The translations under genes were made by a program, and so were the position numbers. A model generated the notes under the pieces. The model saw only the letters and a program-made list of their open reading frames with translations, was not told the DNA's origin and did not search any database. From the NCBI GenBank assembly GCA_026991575.1, contig JALXBF010000191.1, positions 1 to 64,000 on the forward strand: 64,000 nucleotides of DNA. Reading direction: 5' to 3'. Below, one piece after another: positions 4,253-62,493 of the stretch. Source of the stretch: Planctomycetota bacterium (GTDB lineage: Bacteria; Planctomycetota; Planctomycetia; JALXBF01). How positions within the stretch are numbered: position 1 is the first letter of the stretch; each line of letters starts with the position of its first letter.

Positions 4253-6724
4253 CTAGTGCACGAAGAGGAATTCCTTCGTGTTGATCAGGGCCCAGAGCAG
4301 ATCTTCGTAGGCCTCTTTCTTGTTCTTCTTGCTGGCAATGTAATCGAGAGCTGTCTTGAGCTCATCGGCCCGTGGCTCCCGCGCGTAGCACCAGAGCCAG
4401 AGCTCGCGAACCTTCTCCTCGTCGGATCGGCTCTTGTCTGCTGCCAACCGGGCCGCTCGCCCTGAGCCGCTGGAGACCTTGCCCTGGATTTCCTGCGAGT
4501 TCAACAGGTGCAGGCTCTGGGCGAGGTTGGCATCGGCTACGCGTTCGCATTCGCAGGCGCTCTGGCGGGGGGGCTTGCCAAACACGGTCAGGAAGTAGGT
4601 GGTGACCGCTTCGTCAGGCAGCTGGATGGCCCGGGTACCTATGGGCATGCCGTTGAACCTGGTGGGGACGTCCGTCACCTGAGCAATTGCATCGTGCAAC
4701 ACCTCAGCCGGCAGACGCTTCGGGTAGTACCGCGCGAAGTTCTGAGTGTCGTGCTTGTTCCATTCGTTCGGCATGGCGCTCAACTGGTACGTGCGGCTCG
4801 TGCAGATGACGCGCACCAGATGCTTCAGACTGAAGCCGTGTTCGATGAAGTCGCGGGCAAGCGCATCGAGCAGCTCCGGATTGGACGGTGGGTTGGTGAC
4901 CCGCATGTCGTCCTCCGGATCGACGATGCCCTTGCTGAAGAAGTGGGCCCAGTAACGGTTGCAGACGGCCTTCGCAAAGAACGGGTTCTCCGGGGCTCTG
5001 AGCCATTGAACCAGGTACACGCGCGGATCTTCGTCAGGGGGTACGTCTAGCTCTGGACCGTCCAGCCCTTTGGGCTTCATGACGCGCCCGGTCTTTGGAT
5101 GGCGTACAACGCCGTTGGGGTTCACGTAGATGATCTCTTCCTGACGGATGCGGCCGGGCTTGCGGGCAACGCGCGCGAAGAATGCAGCAAAACCGTAGTA
5201 ATCATCCTGGCTCCATTTCTCGAACGGGTGGTGGTGGCAGCGAGCACACTGGATGCGCAGGCCGAGGAACACTTGAGCCGTGTCATCCACTGCCTGTTCC
5301 ACGGTGCGAACTTGACGGTACCAGGCCACGGGCGGGTGCGTGCGCATGTCACCTTGAGCCGCCAGGATGCCCAGCACGAACTGATCGTACGGGACGTCCC
5401 GGCGGATCTGCTCGCGGATCCAACGGTAGAACGCATACGTGCCATAGCGATTCTCCCGATCCCGCCCGCGTACGACACGGAGGATGTCGGCCCACTTCAG
5501 CGCGAAGTAATCGGCATACTCCGGTCGCTCCAGCAGCTCGTCTACCAACTTCTCCCGTTTCTTCGGATCGCGGTCGGCCACAAACTGACGGACTTCCTCC
5601 GGCGTCGGCAGCGTTCCGCAAATGTCGATCATAACACGCCGGATGAACTCCTCATCGCTGCATAGCTCCGACGGGACGATGCCGAGTTGCTGCCACTTCT
5701 TCAGGGTGTACCGGTCGATGAAGTTGTTGATCGGGAACTCGTAGTCGGGCACCGGCACCCCCAGCGGCACCGTGACACGAAAGACGGCTACATGACCCTG
5801 GTACCGGGCCATCACCGCTGCCTCACCACTCTGGTCCTGTGCGGTCACCAGGCCGCTCTCGTCAACTCGAGCCACCTCCTCGGCGTTGGTCTGGTACTGA
5901 GCGTGCCGTGTGACGTCTTCGACAGAGCCATCGCTATAGTGCGCCAGCACGCGGATCTGTTGCGTGCCGCCACGGCGCATGATGCGATGGGTCGGCTCGA
6001 CCGTGATCCGCTCGACCACCGGGTCGTCCGGACTGCCGTAGGGCATACCCGCCTCAATCCAGCGACGGATCAGACGGTACTCGTGACTGTTGGCGTCCAT
6101 TCGCTTGCCGCCGCCATGCGGCACGGCCGCGATTGCTTTGCGCAGCAGCAGGCTGGCGTCCGGCGCTGCCGGGAACAACCTCCTGCCTCTGGCCTCCTTG
6201 ACGAGTGCCTCGTAGTCGTAGGCCGGCTCAAAACCAAGCAACGACAGCTTGAAGCCGTTCTGGCCCGAGGCCTTGCCGTGGCAACCGCCGGAGTTGCACC
6301 CAAGTTTGGTGAAGATCGGCACGATCTGGTTGGCAAAGTTGATCGGCAACGGGTCGGCAATCCGGGTCACTTTCACCGGAACTGCCACCCGCCTTCCGTT
6401 GAATTCAACTACCAGTTCCGTCGCGCCGTCCTTCAGCGGACGCACCAGCCCGGTCTCGTCAACGACGGCGACGGCCGGATCGGTGATCCGATAGTTGGCT
6501 CGACGCGTTAGATCGATCAGCTCTTCGCCGTCCAGACGGCCGGTGACCAGCACCTGGACCGCGGCGTCGACGCCCCGTAGGGTTACCGGTGACGGGCTGA
6601 CGGTCAGCTCATCGACGCGGTTGAAGTCGACGGTCGCTGCCGTTTTCACAGCCGGCTCAGCGGACAGGGCGGTTGCGGTGAGCAGTGCGCCGATCAGGCA
6701 GGCAAACCAGCAAGCGCCTCGCAT
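4253..6724 (-). CDS. Secreted DUF1549/DUF1553 protein with Big-2 domains and haem-c motifs
   Basis: An 823-aa planctomycete hallmark protein. Order: signal peptide (1-22), first Big-2-like Ig domain (about 35-120), a segment with a CNSGGCH motif (near 143) that could bind haem c, second Big-2-like domain (about 245-325), DUF1549 (about 345-555, with a CARCHHHP haem-like motif), then DUF1553 (about 590-800, containing VCNRYWAHFFSKG). The substrate of this family is unknown. Relatives sit near sulfatases or DUF1501 genes in other planctomycetes, but no such partner is here. The start at 6724 is chosen over a further upstream ATG because GGAGG precedes it at good spacing and it opens the signal peptide (MRGACWFACLIGALL). 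The gene is followed at one base by the GGCT-like gene. Confidence 0.9.
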   Translation of the reverse strand: MRGACWFACLIGALLTATALSAEPAVKTAATVDFNRVDELTVSPSPVTLRGVDAAVQVLVTGRLDGEELIDLTRRANYRITDPAVAVVDETGLVRPLKDGATELVVEFNGRRVAVPVKVTRIADPLPINFANQIVPIFTKLGCNSGGCHGKASGQNGFKLSLLGFEPAYDYEALVKEARGRRLFPAAPDASLLLRKAIAAVPHGGGKRMDANSHEYRLIRRWIEAGMPYGSPDDPVVERITVEPTHRIMRRGGTQQIRVLAHYSDGSVEDVTRHAQYQTNAEEVARVDESGLVTAQDQSGEAAVMARYQGHVAVFRVTVPLGVPVPDYEFPINNFIDRYTLKKWQQLGIVPSELCSDEEFIRRVMIDICGTLPTPEEVRQFVADRDPKKREKLVDELLERPEYADYFALKWADILRVVRGRDRENRYGTYAFYRWIREQIRRDVPYDQFVLGILAAQGDMRTHPPVAWYRQVRTVEQAVDDTAQVFLGLRIQCARCHHHPFEKWSQDDYYGFAAFFARVARKPGRIRQEEIIYVNPNGVVRHPKTGRVMKPKGLDGPELDVPPDEDPRVYLVQWLRAPENPFFAKAVCNRYWAHFFSKGIVDPEDDMRVTNPPSNPELLDALARDFIEHGFSLKHLVRVICTSRTYQLSAMPNEWNKHDTQNFARYYPKRLPAEVLHDAIAQVTDVPTRFNGMPIGTRAIQLPDEAVTTYFLTVFGKPPRQSACECERVADANLAQSLHLLNSQEIQGKVSSGSGRAARLAADKSRSDEEKVRELWLWCYAREPRADELKTALDYIASKKNKKEAYEDLLWALINTKEFLFVH

Positions 6725-6826
6725 AGTAGGTCCTCCGGTGCCGAATCTGGCGGCCTCTGCGGTAGGCTCCATCGGTCAGATCGATCCTCAGTTTAACCTA
6801 TCTAGAGACGTTTATGCAACGGGGCT

Positions 6827-43914: not shown

Positions 43915-44042
43915 AATAGCAACGGGTTCATGGTCGCGGAACTCTCTGCGGGCTTACCTTTGGCGCTGTGCTCACGGGGGTGGTACCAGCAACGTACGGA
44001 CCGGGAACGCGCAGAGCTCGGTCATATCGGAGCAGTTGGCGC

Positions 44043-45158
44043 ATGAACCGAGAGATGGCACCTCGGGGCAACCGGCCACAGGTTAGCCCGGAGACGCTCG
44101 TTCGGCTCTTGCTGCAGAAAGACTTCGCGACACGCGCGGAACTGGAGGAGTGCCTGCGTGTCTATCAGGAGCGGCTCGAGCGGGGCGAACAGGTGGATTT
44201 CGCCACGGTGCTCATCGAGCGACAGGCCGTCACTCCCCGACAGCTCCAGCGTGTCTTGCACCAGGCCCGCGGCGGGAATCGCATCCCCGGCTATCAGCTG
44301 CTGGAGAAGATTGGCCAGGGCTCGATGGGCGTCGTCTACAAGGCCCGCCAGCTGAGTATGAACCGGTACGTGGCGATCAAGGTCCTGAACAGCAAGTTCG
44401 CCCGGAACCGGGAGTTCATCGAGCGGTTCTACCGTGAGGCCCATCTGGCCGCCCAGCTTTCCTCGGGTAACATCGTCCAGGCGATCGACGTGGGGGAAAC
44501 GGACGGCATCTACTACTTCGTAATGGAGTACGTTGACGGTCACACGGTGCAGGATGAGCTGGACGACGGGAAGATCTTTTCGCAGGACGAAGCGCTGAAG
44601 ATCGGGATTCAGATCGCCCACGCTCTTGAACATGCCTGGCAGCGTCGACTGGTGCATCGTGACATCAAGCCGGCCAACATCCTGATCGCTCGCGATGGCA
44701 CCGTGAAGTTGGCCGACCTGGGGCTGGCTCGTATGACGTCCGACTTGGCGGCGATCCGGAGCGAGCAGGGTCGCAGTGTCGGCACGGCCTACTATGTGTC
44801 GCCGGAGCAGATCCGAGGCCTGGATGACCTGGACGTGCGCTGCGACATCTACAGCCTCGGCGCTACGCTGTACCACATGACCACCGGTCGACCACCGTTC
44901 CCGGGTGACACGGTTCGTGAGCAGCTGCACGCTCACCTCCACGAGCCACTGACCCCGCCGCATGCGGTGAACCGTGAGCTGACCGAGACGTTCAGTGAGC
45001 TGATCGGATACATGATGGCCAAGGACCGGAATTTCCGGTACCGGGATCCGAAGGACGTGGCTGCCGACATGAAGAGCATCCTCCAGCACGGCGCCCCGTT
45101 CCTGGGCCGCGAGACGATTCCCCAGCCGCTGCGCCGCCGTAACCAAACCAGCTCCTGA
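44043..45158 (+). CDS. Ser/Thr protein kinase
   Basis: A 371-aa kinase. A short N-terminal helical segment (about 1-78, with LLLQKDFATRAELEECL) is followed by the catalytic domain. Visible motifs: glycine loop GQGSMGVVYKA near 92, lysine VAIKVL near 110, catalytic HRDIKPANIL near 207, metal DLGLAR near 225 in place of DFG, and GTAYYVSPEQIRG near 247. There is no membrane helix, so it is cytosolic. Such kinases signal to FHA proteins, and two FHA genes are in this window. It precedes the BpsA-like gene by 181 bases in the same direction. Confidence 0.93.
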   Translation: MNREMAPRGNRPQVSPETLVRLLLQKDFATRAELEECLRVYQERLERGEQVDFATVLIERQAVTPRQLQRVLHQARGGNRIPGYQLLEKIGQGSMGVVYKARQLSMNRYVAIKVLNSKFARNREFIERFYREAHLAAQLSSGNIVQAIDVGETDGIYYFVMEYVDGHTVQDELDDGKIFSQDEALKIGIQIAHALEHAWQRRLVHRDIKPANILIARDGTVKLADLGLARMTSDLAAIRSEQGRSVGTAYYVSPEQIRGLDDLDVRCDIYSLGATLYHMTTGRPPFPGDTVREQLHAHLHEPLTPPHAVNRELTETFSELIGYMMAKDRNFRYRDPKDVAADMKSILQHGAPFLGRETIPQPLRRRNQTSS

Positions 45159-45339
45159 TCTGGTCCGCCCACCTACCTCTTCCAGCTGCCCACTCCGGGG
45201 CCTGCCACATCCGCAGCCAGACTCCGCAGCGGCCACGGGCCGTAGGTCTCGCTTGACGTGCGCCGATAAGATTGGTTCGACGATCCTCGGCGGTTTGTGC
45301 GTGTTAGGCGGACCGTTGGCCGAGACGGAGACCGGACCG

Positions 45340-46461
45340 ATGACCACTGGGGGCGCCGACGTTTCTGGTCGTTACCCCTCCTGGCCGACCCACGGGCGGG
45401 AGGGGGCCAACACGGTGTTGCAGGAGCTGGCCGATGCGGTACGCACCGCCCAGTCGCTGTTCTGTACGGCCCGAGACGTGGAGCGGCTACTAGCCGCGTT
45501 GCAGGTCACGGGAAACGTCTGGGAGCTAGCGCAGCGGAGTGCCGTGCCACTGCTGGTCCTGTACCAGTTGCTGGAGTTGCTCCGGTCGCGCCGCTACGTG
45601 CGGTATGACGGCGAGCGGATCGAGCTTACCGAGCACGGCCAGCGGTTGTGCCAGGACGCGCACATCGCCCCTCAGCGGGTCATCCGGTGTCCGCGCTGTT
45701 CCGGTAGGGGCGTGGACCTGAGCGTGCTCGCCGACGTGCGCGAACGATTCGCTCGAATTGCCGCGAACCGGCCCACCGCCGTCCGTCGTTACGACCAGGC
45801 TTACATGGTTGAAGACGCCACGCTGGCACGCGTTGCGTTCCTGTGGGGCCAGGGTGACCTGACCGGCAAGGAGCTGCTCATCATCGGTGACGATGACCTG
45901 GTCAGCGTCGCTGCGGCCCTGACGCGTGAGCCGGCACGCGTGGTGGTGCTGGAGGTGGATCAACGCCTGATCGACTTCATCAACGACGTGGCACGGGCTC
46001 AGGATCTGGCAATCGAGGCAGTGGCATACGATGTCTGCCAACCGCTACCTGAGCCGTACCGGCATCGGTTCGACACGTTCGTGTGCGACCCATCCGAAAG
46101 TTTTGGCGGCCTGACGGCGTTCCTGGCACGATGCCTGCTGGGGCTCCGGGGGCAGGGGGCAGCGGGTGTGTTCGGGTTGAGCCGGCACGAGGCGTCGCTG
46201 CAGAAGTGGCACCGTTTGCAGCGCTGGCTGAACGAGCGAAGTGCCGTGATCACCGAGATTCGCAGCGACTTCAGCCAGTACCAGAACTGGCCCTACGTCG
46301 AGGAAATGAAAGCCTGGGCATTCCTTCCGATCCGCGTCCACCCGGAGAAACCCTGGTATCAGTCGAGCCTGATCCGTGTCGAACTGCTCGACCGGCCGCA
46401 AATTGCCAACGAGCCACTTTCGCCTGAGATCTTCATGGACGAAGAAGCTGCGACGTTCTGA
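45340..46461 (+). CDS. bpsA: BpsA-like branched-chain polyamine synthase (DUF43 family)
   Basis: A 373-aa protein. A winged-helix-like N-terminal domain (about 10-105) with a Cys pair (CPRCSGRG near 117) leads to an aminopropyltransferase-like catalytic domain. Signature blocks are GDDDLVSVAAA at about 183-193, AVAYDVCQPLPEP near 228 and FVCDPSESFGGL near 247, where the Asp residues would form the active site, as in the Thermococcus and Thermus enzymes. The family transfers aminopropyl groups from decarboxylated SAM to the inner nitrogen of spermidine, giving N4-branched polyamines used by thermophiles. The ATG at 45340 is the chosen start (GGAG nine bases upstream). The frame opens earlier at a TTG. 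metK is in this window. speD and speE are not. Confidence 0.82.
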   Translation: MTTGGADVSGRYPSWPTHGREGANTVLQELADAVRTAQSLFCTARDVERLLAALQVTGNVWELAQRSAVPLLVLYQLLELLRSRRYVRYDGERIELTEHGQRLCQDAHIAPQRVIRCPRCSGRGVDLSVLADVRERFARIAANRPTAVRRYDQAYMVEDATLARVAFLWGQGDLTGKELLIIGDDDLVSVAAALTREPARVVVLEVDQRLIDFINDVARAQDLAIEAVAYDVCQPLPEPYRHRFDTFVCDPSESFGGLTAFLARCLLGLRGQGAAGVFGLSRHEASLQKWHRLQRWLNERSAVITEIRSDFSQYQNWPYVEEMKAWAFLPIRVHPEKPWYQSSLIRVELLDRPQIANEPLSPEIFMDEEAATF

Positions 46462-60298: not shown

Positions 60299-61450
60299 TT
60301 AGCTCAAGCCGGCAGCCTCTTGCAGTTCCTGCACGCGGTCTGTGCGTTCCCAGGTGAATTCCGGTTCGTTGCGGCCGAAGTGACCGCCGGCCGCGGTCTT
60401 GCGGTAGATGGGCCGCAGCAGGCCGAGGTGTTCGATGATGCCGCGTGGCGATAGCGGAAAGACTTCACGGACGATCTCCGCGAGCCGCTCGTCGGGTACC
60501 GCACCGGTGCCGAACGTGTTGACGGCAATGCTGACCGGATCGGCCACACCGATGGCGTAGGCCAGCTGGACTTCGCACCTTCGGGCTAGTTTGGCCGCTA
60601 CCAGGTTCTTGGCGATGTAGCGGGCCATGTACGTGGCGGACCGGTCCACCTTGGTTGGGTCTTTTCCGCTGAATGCGCCTCCCCCATGCCGTGCGCTGCC
60701 GCCGTAGGTGTCCACGATGATCTTGCGGCCGGTGACTCCGGTGTCCCCCTGCGGACCGCCGATGACGAACCGGCCAGTGGGGTTGATGTGCCAGATGATG
60801 TCCCCATTGACCAGGTCGTCTGGCAGGACGGGCCGCACGACCTGTTCGATCACCGTGTCACGAATCTCGCGGTCGCTGACATCCGGTGCGTGCTGCGTGG
60901 AGACGACCACCGTATGCACGCGGACCGGCTGGAAGCCCTCGTACTCAATGGTCACCTGGCTCTTGCCGTCCGGGCGAAGCCAGGGGATGGTGCCATTCTC
61001 GCGCAGTTCTGCCAACCGGTTCACGATCCGGTGAGCCAGGGCGATGGCCATCGGCATCAGCTCGTCGGTTTCGTCGCAGGCGAACCCGAACATCAGGCCC
61101 TGGTCGCCCGCACCGCCGGGATCCACCCCCCGCGCAATGTCCGGACTCTGCCGGTTCAGTGCCACCAGCACAGCGCATTGGTCACCGCTGAAGCCGTACG
61201 CAGGATCGGTGTAGCCGATCTCGTTGATGATCTGCCGCACCAGAGCGGTGTAGTTCACAGACGCGCTCGTGGTCACCTCGCCAGCGATCATTGCCAAGCC
61301 GGTGGTGACCAGCGTTTCGCAAGCCACACGGCCCGTGGGATCTTGTTCGAGGATTGCGTCCAAGACACCGTCGGAGATCTGGTCGGCGATCTTGTCCGGG
61401 TGGCCCTTCGTCACCGACTCGCTCGTGAACAGATAACGGTGGCTGCTCAC
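60299..61450 (-). CDS. metK: S-adenosylmethionine synthase
   Basis: A 383-aa enzyme that makes SAM from methionine and ATP. Landmarks: [20 protein letters not shown] near 6-25, [16 protein letters not shown] near 116-131, and the [17 protein letters not shown] phosphate loop near 250-266. Length is normal (about 384 aa). The start is taken as GTG at 61450, with GGGAGC upstream. The frame continues upstream through a non-conserved stretch. It feeds methylation and, through decarboxylated SAM, polyamine synthesis, so it may connect with the BpsA-like enzyme. A dedicated promoter lies upstream. Confidence 0.96.
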
Positions 61451-61516
61451 CGGTATTGCTCCCGAATCGCATGCACCAGAGAACCGGCCGGAATGGCGTG
61501 CTGCTTTAGGTCGCAA

Positions 61517-61545
61517 ATTATAGAAGTGCTCTCCGGGACCCTCAA
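61517..61545 (-). promoter_or_regulatory. Sigma-70-like promoter of metK
   Basis: On the minus strand TTGAGG (61545-61540) and TATAAT (61522-61517) have a 17-base spacer. The metK start is about 70 bases downstream. This has the clearest -10 hexamer with a proper -35 partner in the window, and sits directly after the stop of the preceding TPR gene. Confidence 0.7.
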
Positions 61546-62493
61546 TCAACGGCGCCCCGATAGGGCGAACCGGCGGCCGAGTCGGCAGAGCTGCTCGATG
61601 CCCTCGGCCAGTCTGGCCTGCGCCCGGTCGATTCGATCCATTGCATCTCGGTACTCACGCACACGGAGTTCCAGTTCCGTCGTCCCTGCCTGGGAGTGCA
61701 CGAGCGAATGCGACAGGGCGCGAATGGCCGGCTGGACCACGTCGTCGATCACTTTGAGCATCTCTCCGACAAGCTTCTCTTGCGCGAGGGCCAATTCGTG
61801 AGTCTGAACCAGTGCTTCGGCGCGTTCTGCTACATTGGCAAATGGCCGAATCAGGCCCTCGGCAGGAATCGCTTCCTCCGCAAGTCCCGCGGTGCTTGCG
61901 GCCGGCTGCTCTTGTTGCGCTGCGGTTTGGGCGGCGAGAATCTTCTGGGCGGCCTGCAACCCGTGACGTAACGACTCGTTGGCTGGGTCCACCTTGAGCC
62001 CTTCCTCGTAAGCAGCGGCGGCTTCGCGGAAGCGGGCCAGGTCGAAGAGGACGTTGCCGAGGTTCAGGTGTGCCGCGACAAGCTTCGGGTCTTTGCGAAT
62101 GGCTTCACGGAACGCCTCGGCCGCCAGGTCCAGGATCCCCTTTGCACGGTATGCCACCCCGAGGTTGTAATAGGCGTAGGCAGACTGCGGCGCAAGCTGC
62201 AGGCCCTTACGCAGGGCAGGGATGGCATCGTCGGGCTTGCCCATCAGCACATAGGCTACTCCCAGATTGATATGCGCCGCCGCGTTGCGCGGATCAAGCT
62301 CGGTGCAGGCCTGGAAATGATCCACCGCTGTCTGGTAATCGCCCAGCTTGCCCGACGCCAGCGCCAGGCCAAAGTAGGCGTCGGCGGAGCGAGGGTTTTG
62401 GGCGACTACTTGGGCGAACAACGCCTGCGCTGTGCGGAATGCGCCTTCGGCTAGTGCCTGCTGCGCGCGCTGGAGCAGAGCACCTTCGGTCAC
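61546..62493 (-). CDS. TPR protein with C-terminal coiled coil
   Basis: A 315-aa cytosolic protein. Five or six TPR units fill about 1-180 ([29 protein letters not shown] is split across the first two, then [20 protein letters not shown] and [16 protein letters not shown]). A linker and a long amphipathic helix region (about 220-315) end the protein. No enzymatic motif. The start is GTG at 62493. It lies between the DUF2582 gene and metK on the same strand and may share the promoter of the DUF2582 gene. Confidence 0.85.

Follow-up and report, generated by a model that had tools for sequence, protein, structure and literature searches.

A Putative Thermus-Type Branched-Chain Polyamine Synthase in a Planctomycete

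A gene in the window (the whole stretch of DNA analysed, 64 kb in length) almost certainly encodes, as judged from its sequence, the branched-chain polyamine synthase BpsA (EC 2.5.1.128). The enzyme is very probably of the Thermus type, making N4-branched polyamines from spermidine and being fed by a SpeD–SpeE fusion protein and a putrescine route. BpsA has been reported to be confined to thermophiles (PMC12979288), and its occurrence in a probably heat-loving planctomycete fits this distribution. The enzyme family is already known; the novelty lies in the host lineage, which adds Planctomycetota to the lineages with canonical BpsA, and not in the kind of enzyme. The combination of a SpeD–SpeE fusion, a Thermus-type BpsA, and an agmatine deiminase route is not described in the literature found.

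Gene and Family Assignment

The open reading frame runs from an ATG codon to a stop codon at 46459–46461 (Table 1). Initiation at a TTG codon at 45253 would lengthen the protein by 29 residues, but the ATG start is adequate, since homology begins only near residue 25. In the Pfam search, BpsA_C (PF01861) was the sole family matched, with an E-value of 5.9e-81 and a score (271.7 bits; cut-off 27) well above what chance would give, and the profile was covered nearly whole (positions 1–242 of 243); no NCBIfam model matched the 373-residue protein. All PDB entries matched by phmmer are BpsA or an orthologue, among them the Thermus thermophilus enzyme (6j27) and its C-terminal mutein (6j28), the Thermococcus kodakarensis enzyme (5xnc, and others), and the Pyrococcus furiosus orthologue (2qm3).

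A structure model with a mean pLDDT of 76.9 was built on an alignment of four rows. When it was searched against the PDB, the nine best matches were BpsA structures (top E-value 1e-35), and the next fold followed at 4.5e-12; methyltransferases are numerous among the Rossmann fold matches. The TM score to the BpsA structures is about 0.6 (0.61) with a large rmsd, and the domains of the model are likely misoriented. Pfam match, PDB alignments, tree, and fold match thus agree with the earlier note, which had identified the protein as BpsA-like from the letters of the DNA, and the profile search did not place it in a different methyltransferase family.

Table 1. Coordinates of bpsA, of its domains and motifs, and of other genes mentioned in the text (positions in the window unless a locus is named).
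Feature	Position	Strand	Basis
bpsA, branched-chain polyamine synthase, 373 aa	45340..46461	+	PF01861, PDB relatives, tree, fold match
N-terminal winged-helix-like domain, residues about 19–106	45394..45657	+	alignment to Thermus/Thermococcus N-terminal domain; helices and beta wing in model
CPRC (CxxC), residues 117–120, inter-domain linker	45688..45699	+	alignment
GDDD, G183 D184 D185 D186 (= Tk-BpsA G157–D160)	45886..45897	+	alignment
DPSE, residues 250–253 (= Tk DPPE, D225–E228); D250 = acceptor-site D225	46087..46098	+	alignment
C-terminal acidic cluster EIFMDEE, residues 363–369	46426..46446	+	alignment; pattern match to Tk tail
PSCyt2 and PSD1 protein	4253–6772	-	
Serine/threonine protein kinase	43968–45158	+	
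Short GlmU-like protein, 322 aa	46516–47484	-	
AdoMet synthetase	60299–61549		
Fused SpeD–SpeE, 513 aa (contig C39)	L002, 301–1842	-	
BpsA-like protein, other family of the class	L010, 1423–2445	-	
BpsA-like protein, other family of the class	L064, 1426–2445	-	

The gene directly preceding bpsA, in the same orientation, is that of the protein kinase. In the GlmU-like protein, the nucleotidyltransferase part is complete and the hexapeptide-repeat acetyltransferase part is shortened. Proteins with PSCyt2 and PSD1 domains are typical of planctomycetes; the one found in the window also carries an Ig-like domain, and its presence supports the assignment of the host to this phylum.

Domains and Active-Site Residues

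The winged-helix N-terminus claimed in the earlier note is consistent with a predicted arrangement of helices and a short beta wing, and the segment aligns with both solved enzymes. The signature blocks GDDDL (residues 183–187), YDVCQPLP, and CDPSES are present and align residue by residue with the solved BpsA enzymes. The CxxC of the linker is also found in the Thermus, Thermococcus, and Pyrococcus enzymes. The GDDD motif is known to position, through two of its Asp residues, the aminopropyl group of decarboxylated AdoMet (dcAdoMet; PMC12979288).

All catalytic residues named for the Thermococcus enzyme are identical in the planctomycete protein; in the pairwise alignment with T. kodakarensis BpsA (Tk-BpsA), this includes the acceptor site (D225 = D250, E259 = E284, Y290 = Y314, Y316 = Y340). 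In the Thermococcus enzyme, the acidic C-terminal cluster has been assigned the role of aminopropyl carrier (PMC12979288). Tk residues were mapped as chain number minus 20, while the published carrier numbers fit minus 22; because carrier and GDDD numbers thus differ in offset in that review, the tail was matched by the pattern E-L-Y-D-D-E-E. Four of the five acidic carrier positions are kept, including DEE, and one D is replaced by M (EIFMDEEAATF, as compared with ELYDDEESST in Tk and DLQDEEATTY in Thermus).

The proposal that CDPSES could shift specificity did not hold. The aligned motif reads TDPPET in Tk, TDPVEG in Thermus, TDPVES in a Bipolaricaulota protein (L006), ADPSET in L008, and MDPVET in L010, so that the variable residue is P in the archaeal enzymes and V in Thermus, whereas the homologue L008 shares the S. 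On both sides of it, D and E are invariant among the closest full-length BpsA proteins, and the one full-length exception is the long-branched L011 (TEPPDT). Since bona fide BpsA enzymes and their relatives keep D and E but differ freely in the third residue, there is no ground to expect a shift in specificity from CDPSES, and its use as a marker of altered specificity was rejected.

Supply of Polyamine Precursors

The host genome (4.96 Mb, 97.8% complete) encodes one AdoMet decarboxylase and one clear spermidine synthase, both within the same fused open reading frame, which exceeds the NCBIfam cut-offs for SAM_DCase_Bsu and PRK00811. Genes for the supply of dcAdoMet and spermidine are therefore present in this fused form, whereas the earlier note had named an absence of dcAdoMet synthesis as evidence against its proposal. 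A fusion of SpeD with an aminopropyltransferase is functional in Pelagibacter (PMC11107197). In the SpeD half, the processing Ser, a His at +5, and a Cys at +20 match S63, H68, and C83 of the Thermotoga maritima enzyme (PMC10407285). The Pro of HTWPE appears to be the one that, according to the same paper, marks bona fide AdoMet decarboxylases. Immediately ahead of the processing Ser, the protein has Gln and not Glu. The SpeE half carries GGGEGA, and its best PDB matches are the Thermus aminopropyltransferase 1uir and the plant thermospermine synthase 6bq2.

Two proteins in the genome match PF02784, one being SpeA (biosynthetic arginine decarboxylase) and the other LysA. An agmatine deiminase is present, as is an AguB-like amidase, which scores 286 bits and lies under its family's curated cut-off of 410. 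A Thermus-like agmatinase route was considered and rejected: no ureohydrolase of the agmatinase family PF00491, which the Thermus N1-aminopropylagmatine route to spermidine requires, was matched in the 97.8% complete genome. Given this and the presence of agmatine deiminase and the AguB-like amidase, spermidine is most likely formed via putrescine, and the likely overall sequence is arginine to agmatine, putrescine, spermidine, and N4-branched products. The bpsA gene does not adjoin other polyamine genes; an AdoMet synthetase gene lies elsewhere in the window.

BpsA would take aminopropyl groups from the dcAdoMet supplied, together with spermidine, by the fused SpeD–SpeE encoded elsewhere in the genome, while SpeA, agmatine deiminase, and the AguB-like amidase would provide putrescine from arginine. 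The acidic C-terminal tail may briefly carry the aminopropyl groups, one or two of which would then be attached to spermidine at its inner N4 nitrogen. The predicted products are N4-aminopropylspermidine and N4-bis(aminopropyl)spermidine. We infer this reaction and its products, and also, from characterised relatives, that the products may shield nucleic acids where the host lives hot.

Phylogeny and Distribution

In a tree of 13 sequences, the planctomycete BpsA pairs with Thermus BpsA (88/90) and then with the Bipolaricaulota protein (88/92), and the archaeal enzymes stand apart; the value of 88/90 is below the strict support threshold, so that support is moderate, and the branches are long.

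BpsA is rare in Planctomycetota. The BpsA_C cut-off was passed by 3 of 392 genomes sampled across the phylum and by 6 of 398 genomes of the class, half of the latter (3 of 6) owing to short divergent proteins (L065, L066, and L067). These short PF01861 proteins have GDGD and NPPWG motifs, lack the N-terminal domain, and fall outside BpsA on a fully supported branch; they are probably not BpsA and more like amino-methyltransferases. The host order is represented by the host genome alone in the genome set. Besides the host enzyme, the remaining two are the BpsA-like proteins of G167 and G526 (loci L010 and L064), both from another family of the class, which have GDDD and DPVE but no acidic tail; such tail-less proteins make the carrier mechanism testable by comparison. 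It is plausible from the sequences that the host bpsA was acquired separately from these BpsA-like genes, so that one bacterial class may have gained such genes on two or more occasions.

A scan of named genomes returned four loci only, and one of these, in Vibrio (L009), was discarded as a threonine-synthase-like open reading frame. A search of plasmids for BpsA homologues gave a single weak Pseudomonas match and nothing else.

Alternative Functions and Host Thermophily

The occurrence of the short GDGD/NPPWG proteins in the same class means that a Pfam match alone is no proof of BpsA, and many of the Rossmann fold matches are methyltransferases; the protein might then be one of those members of the wider PF01861 family that methylate with AdoMet, and not an aminopropyltransferase. 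This is highly improbable, as the planctomycete protein combines the GDDD and DPSE motifs and the residues of the acceptor site with an N-terminal domain and an acidic tail, all of which the short proteins lack, and the latter branch outside with full support. A generic methyltransferase behind the Pfam match was discarded on the grounds of motifs, tail, and tree. It is rather unlikely that this is an enzyme of the BpsA fold acting mainly on a linear polyamine other than spermidine, for instance thermospermine or norspermidine. In favour of this reading, the partner SpeE resembles the thermospermine type in both motif and best PDB matches, and Thermus BpsA is itself a generalist (PMC12979288). 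However, GGGEGA, although linked to thermospermine synthases, does not separate them from spermidine synthases (PMC11107197), and only one clear SpeE is encoded in the genome. A related and equally tentative idea is that a thermospermine-like SpeD–SpeE fusion and the agmatine deiminase route feed a separately acquired Thermus-type BpsA, whose products might be built on a different backbone. Branching of spermidine by a Thermus-type BpsA remains the preferred reading.

The suggestion that the host grows hot found indirect support in composition. The 16S rRNA has a G+C content of 61.6%, as compared with 59.4% in G167 and 56.3% in G274. Over 16 aligned homologous open reading frames, the IVYWREL fraction is 0.418 in the host versus 0.380 in other class members (difference 0.038, bootstrap 95% 0.023–0.053). 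With G291, which has a similar genome G+C, two aligned pairs showed no difference, so that a bias in G+C may account for some of the IVYWREL excess; of the two signs, the rRNA G+C is the stronger. Absolute temperature estimates based on the composition of few genes are unreliable, and the host could be a non-thermophile in which BpsA serves against some other stress. Since the 16S G+C and the paired protein composition both point to thermophily, this is quite improbable, and the host is probably heat-loving.

Comparison with Known Systems

Within the same class, the BpsA-like proteins of G167 and G526, which belong to another family, share GDDD, DPVE, and the N-terminal domain with BpsA, but they are only 32–33% identical to the planctomycete enzyme, lack both CxxC and the C-terminal acidic cluster, and form a separate clade. 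The "specialist" archaeal type, represented by Thermococcus kodakarensis BpsA (5xnc), is 37% identical and has all of the named active-site residues in common with the planctomycete enzyme, which differs in having EIFMDEE in place of ELYDDEE and DPSE in place of DPPE. From the "generalist" bacterial type of Thermus thermophilus (6j27), it differs by DPSE in place of DPVE and by one extra residue before DEE; unlike Thermus, the host is predicted to make putrescine via agmatine deiminase, without an agmatinase-family gene. The Thermus enzyme is its sister in the tree, with about 46% identity over 339 positions, the same motifs, and a common C-terminus of the form xDEEAxT-aromatic.
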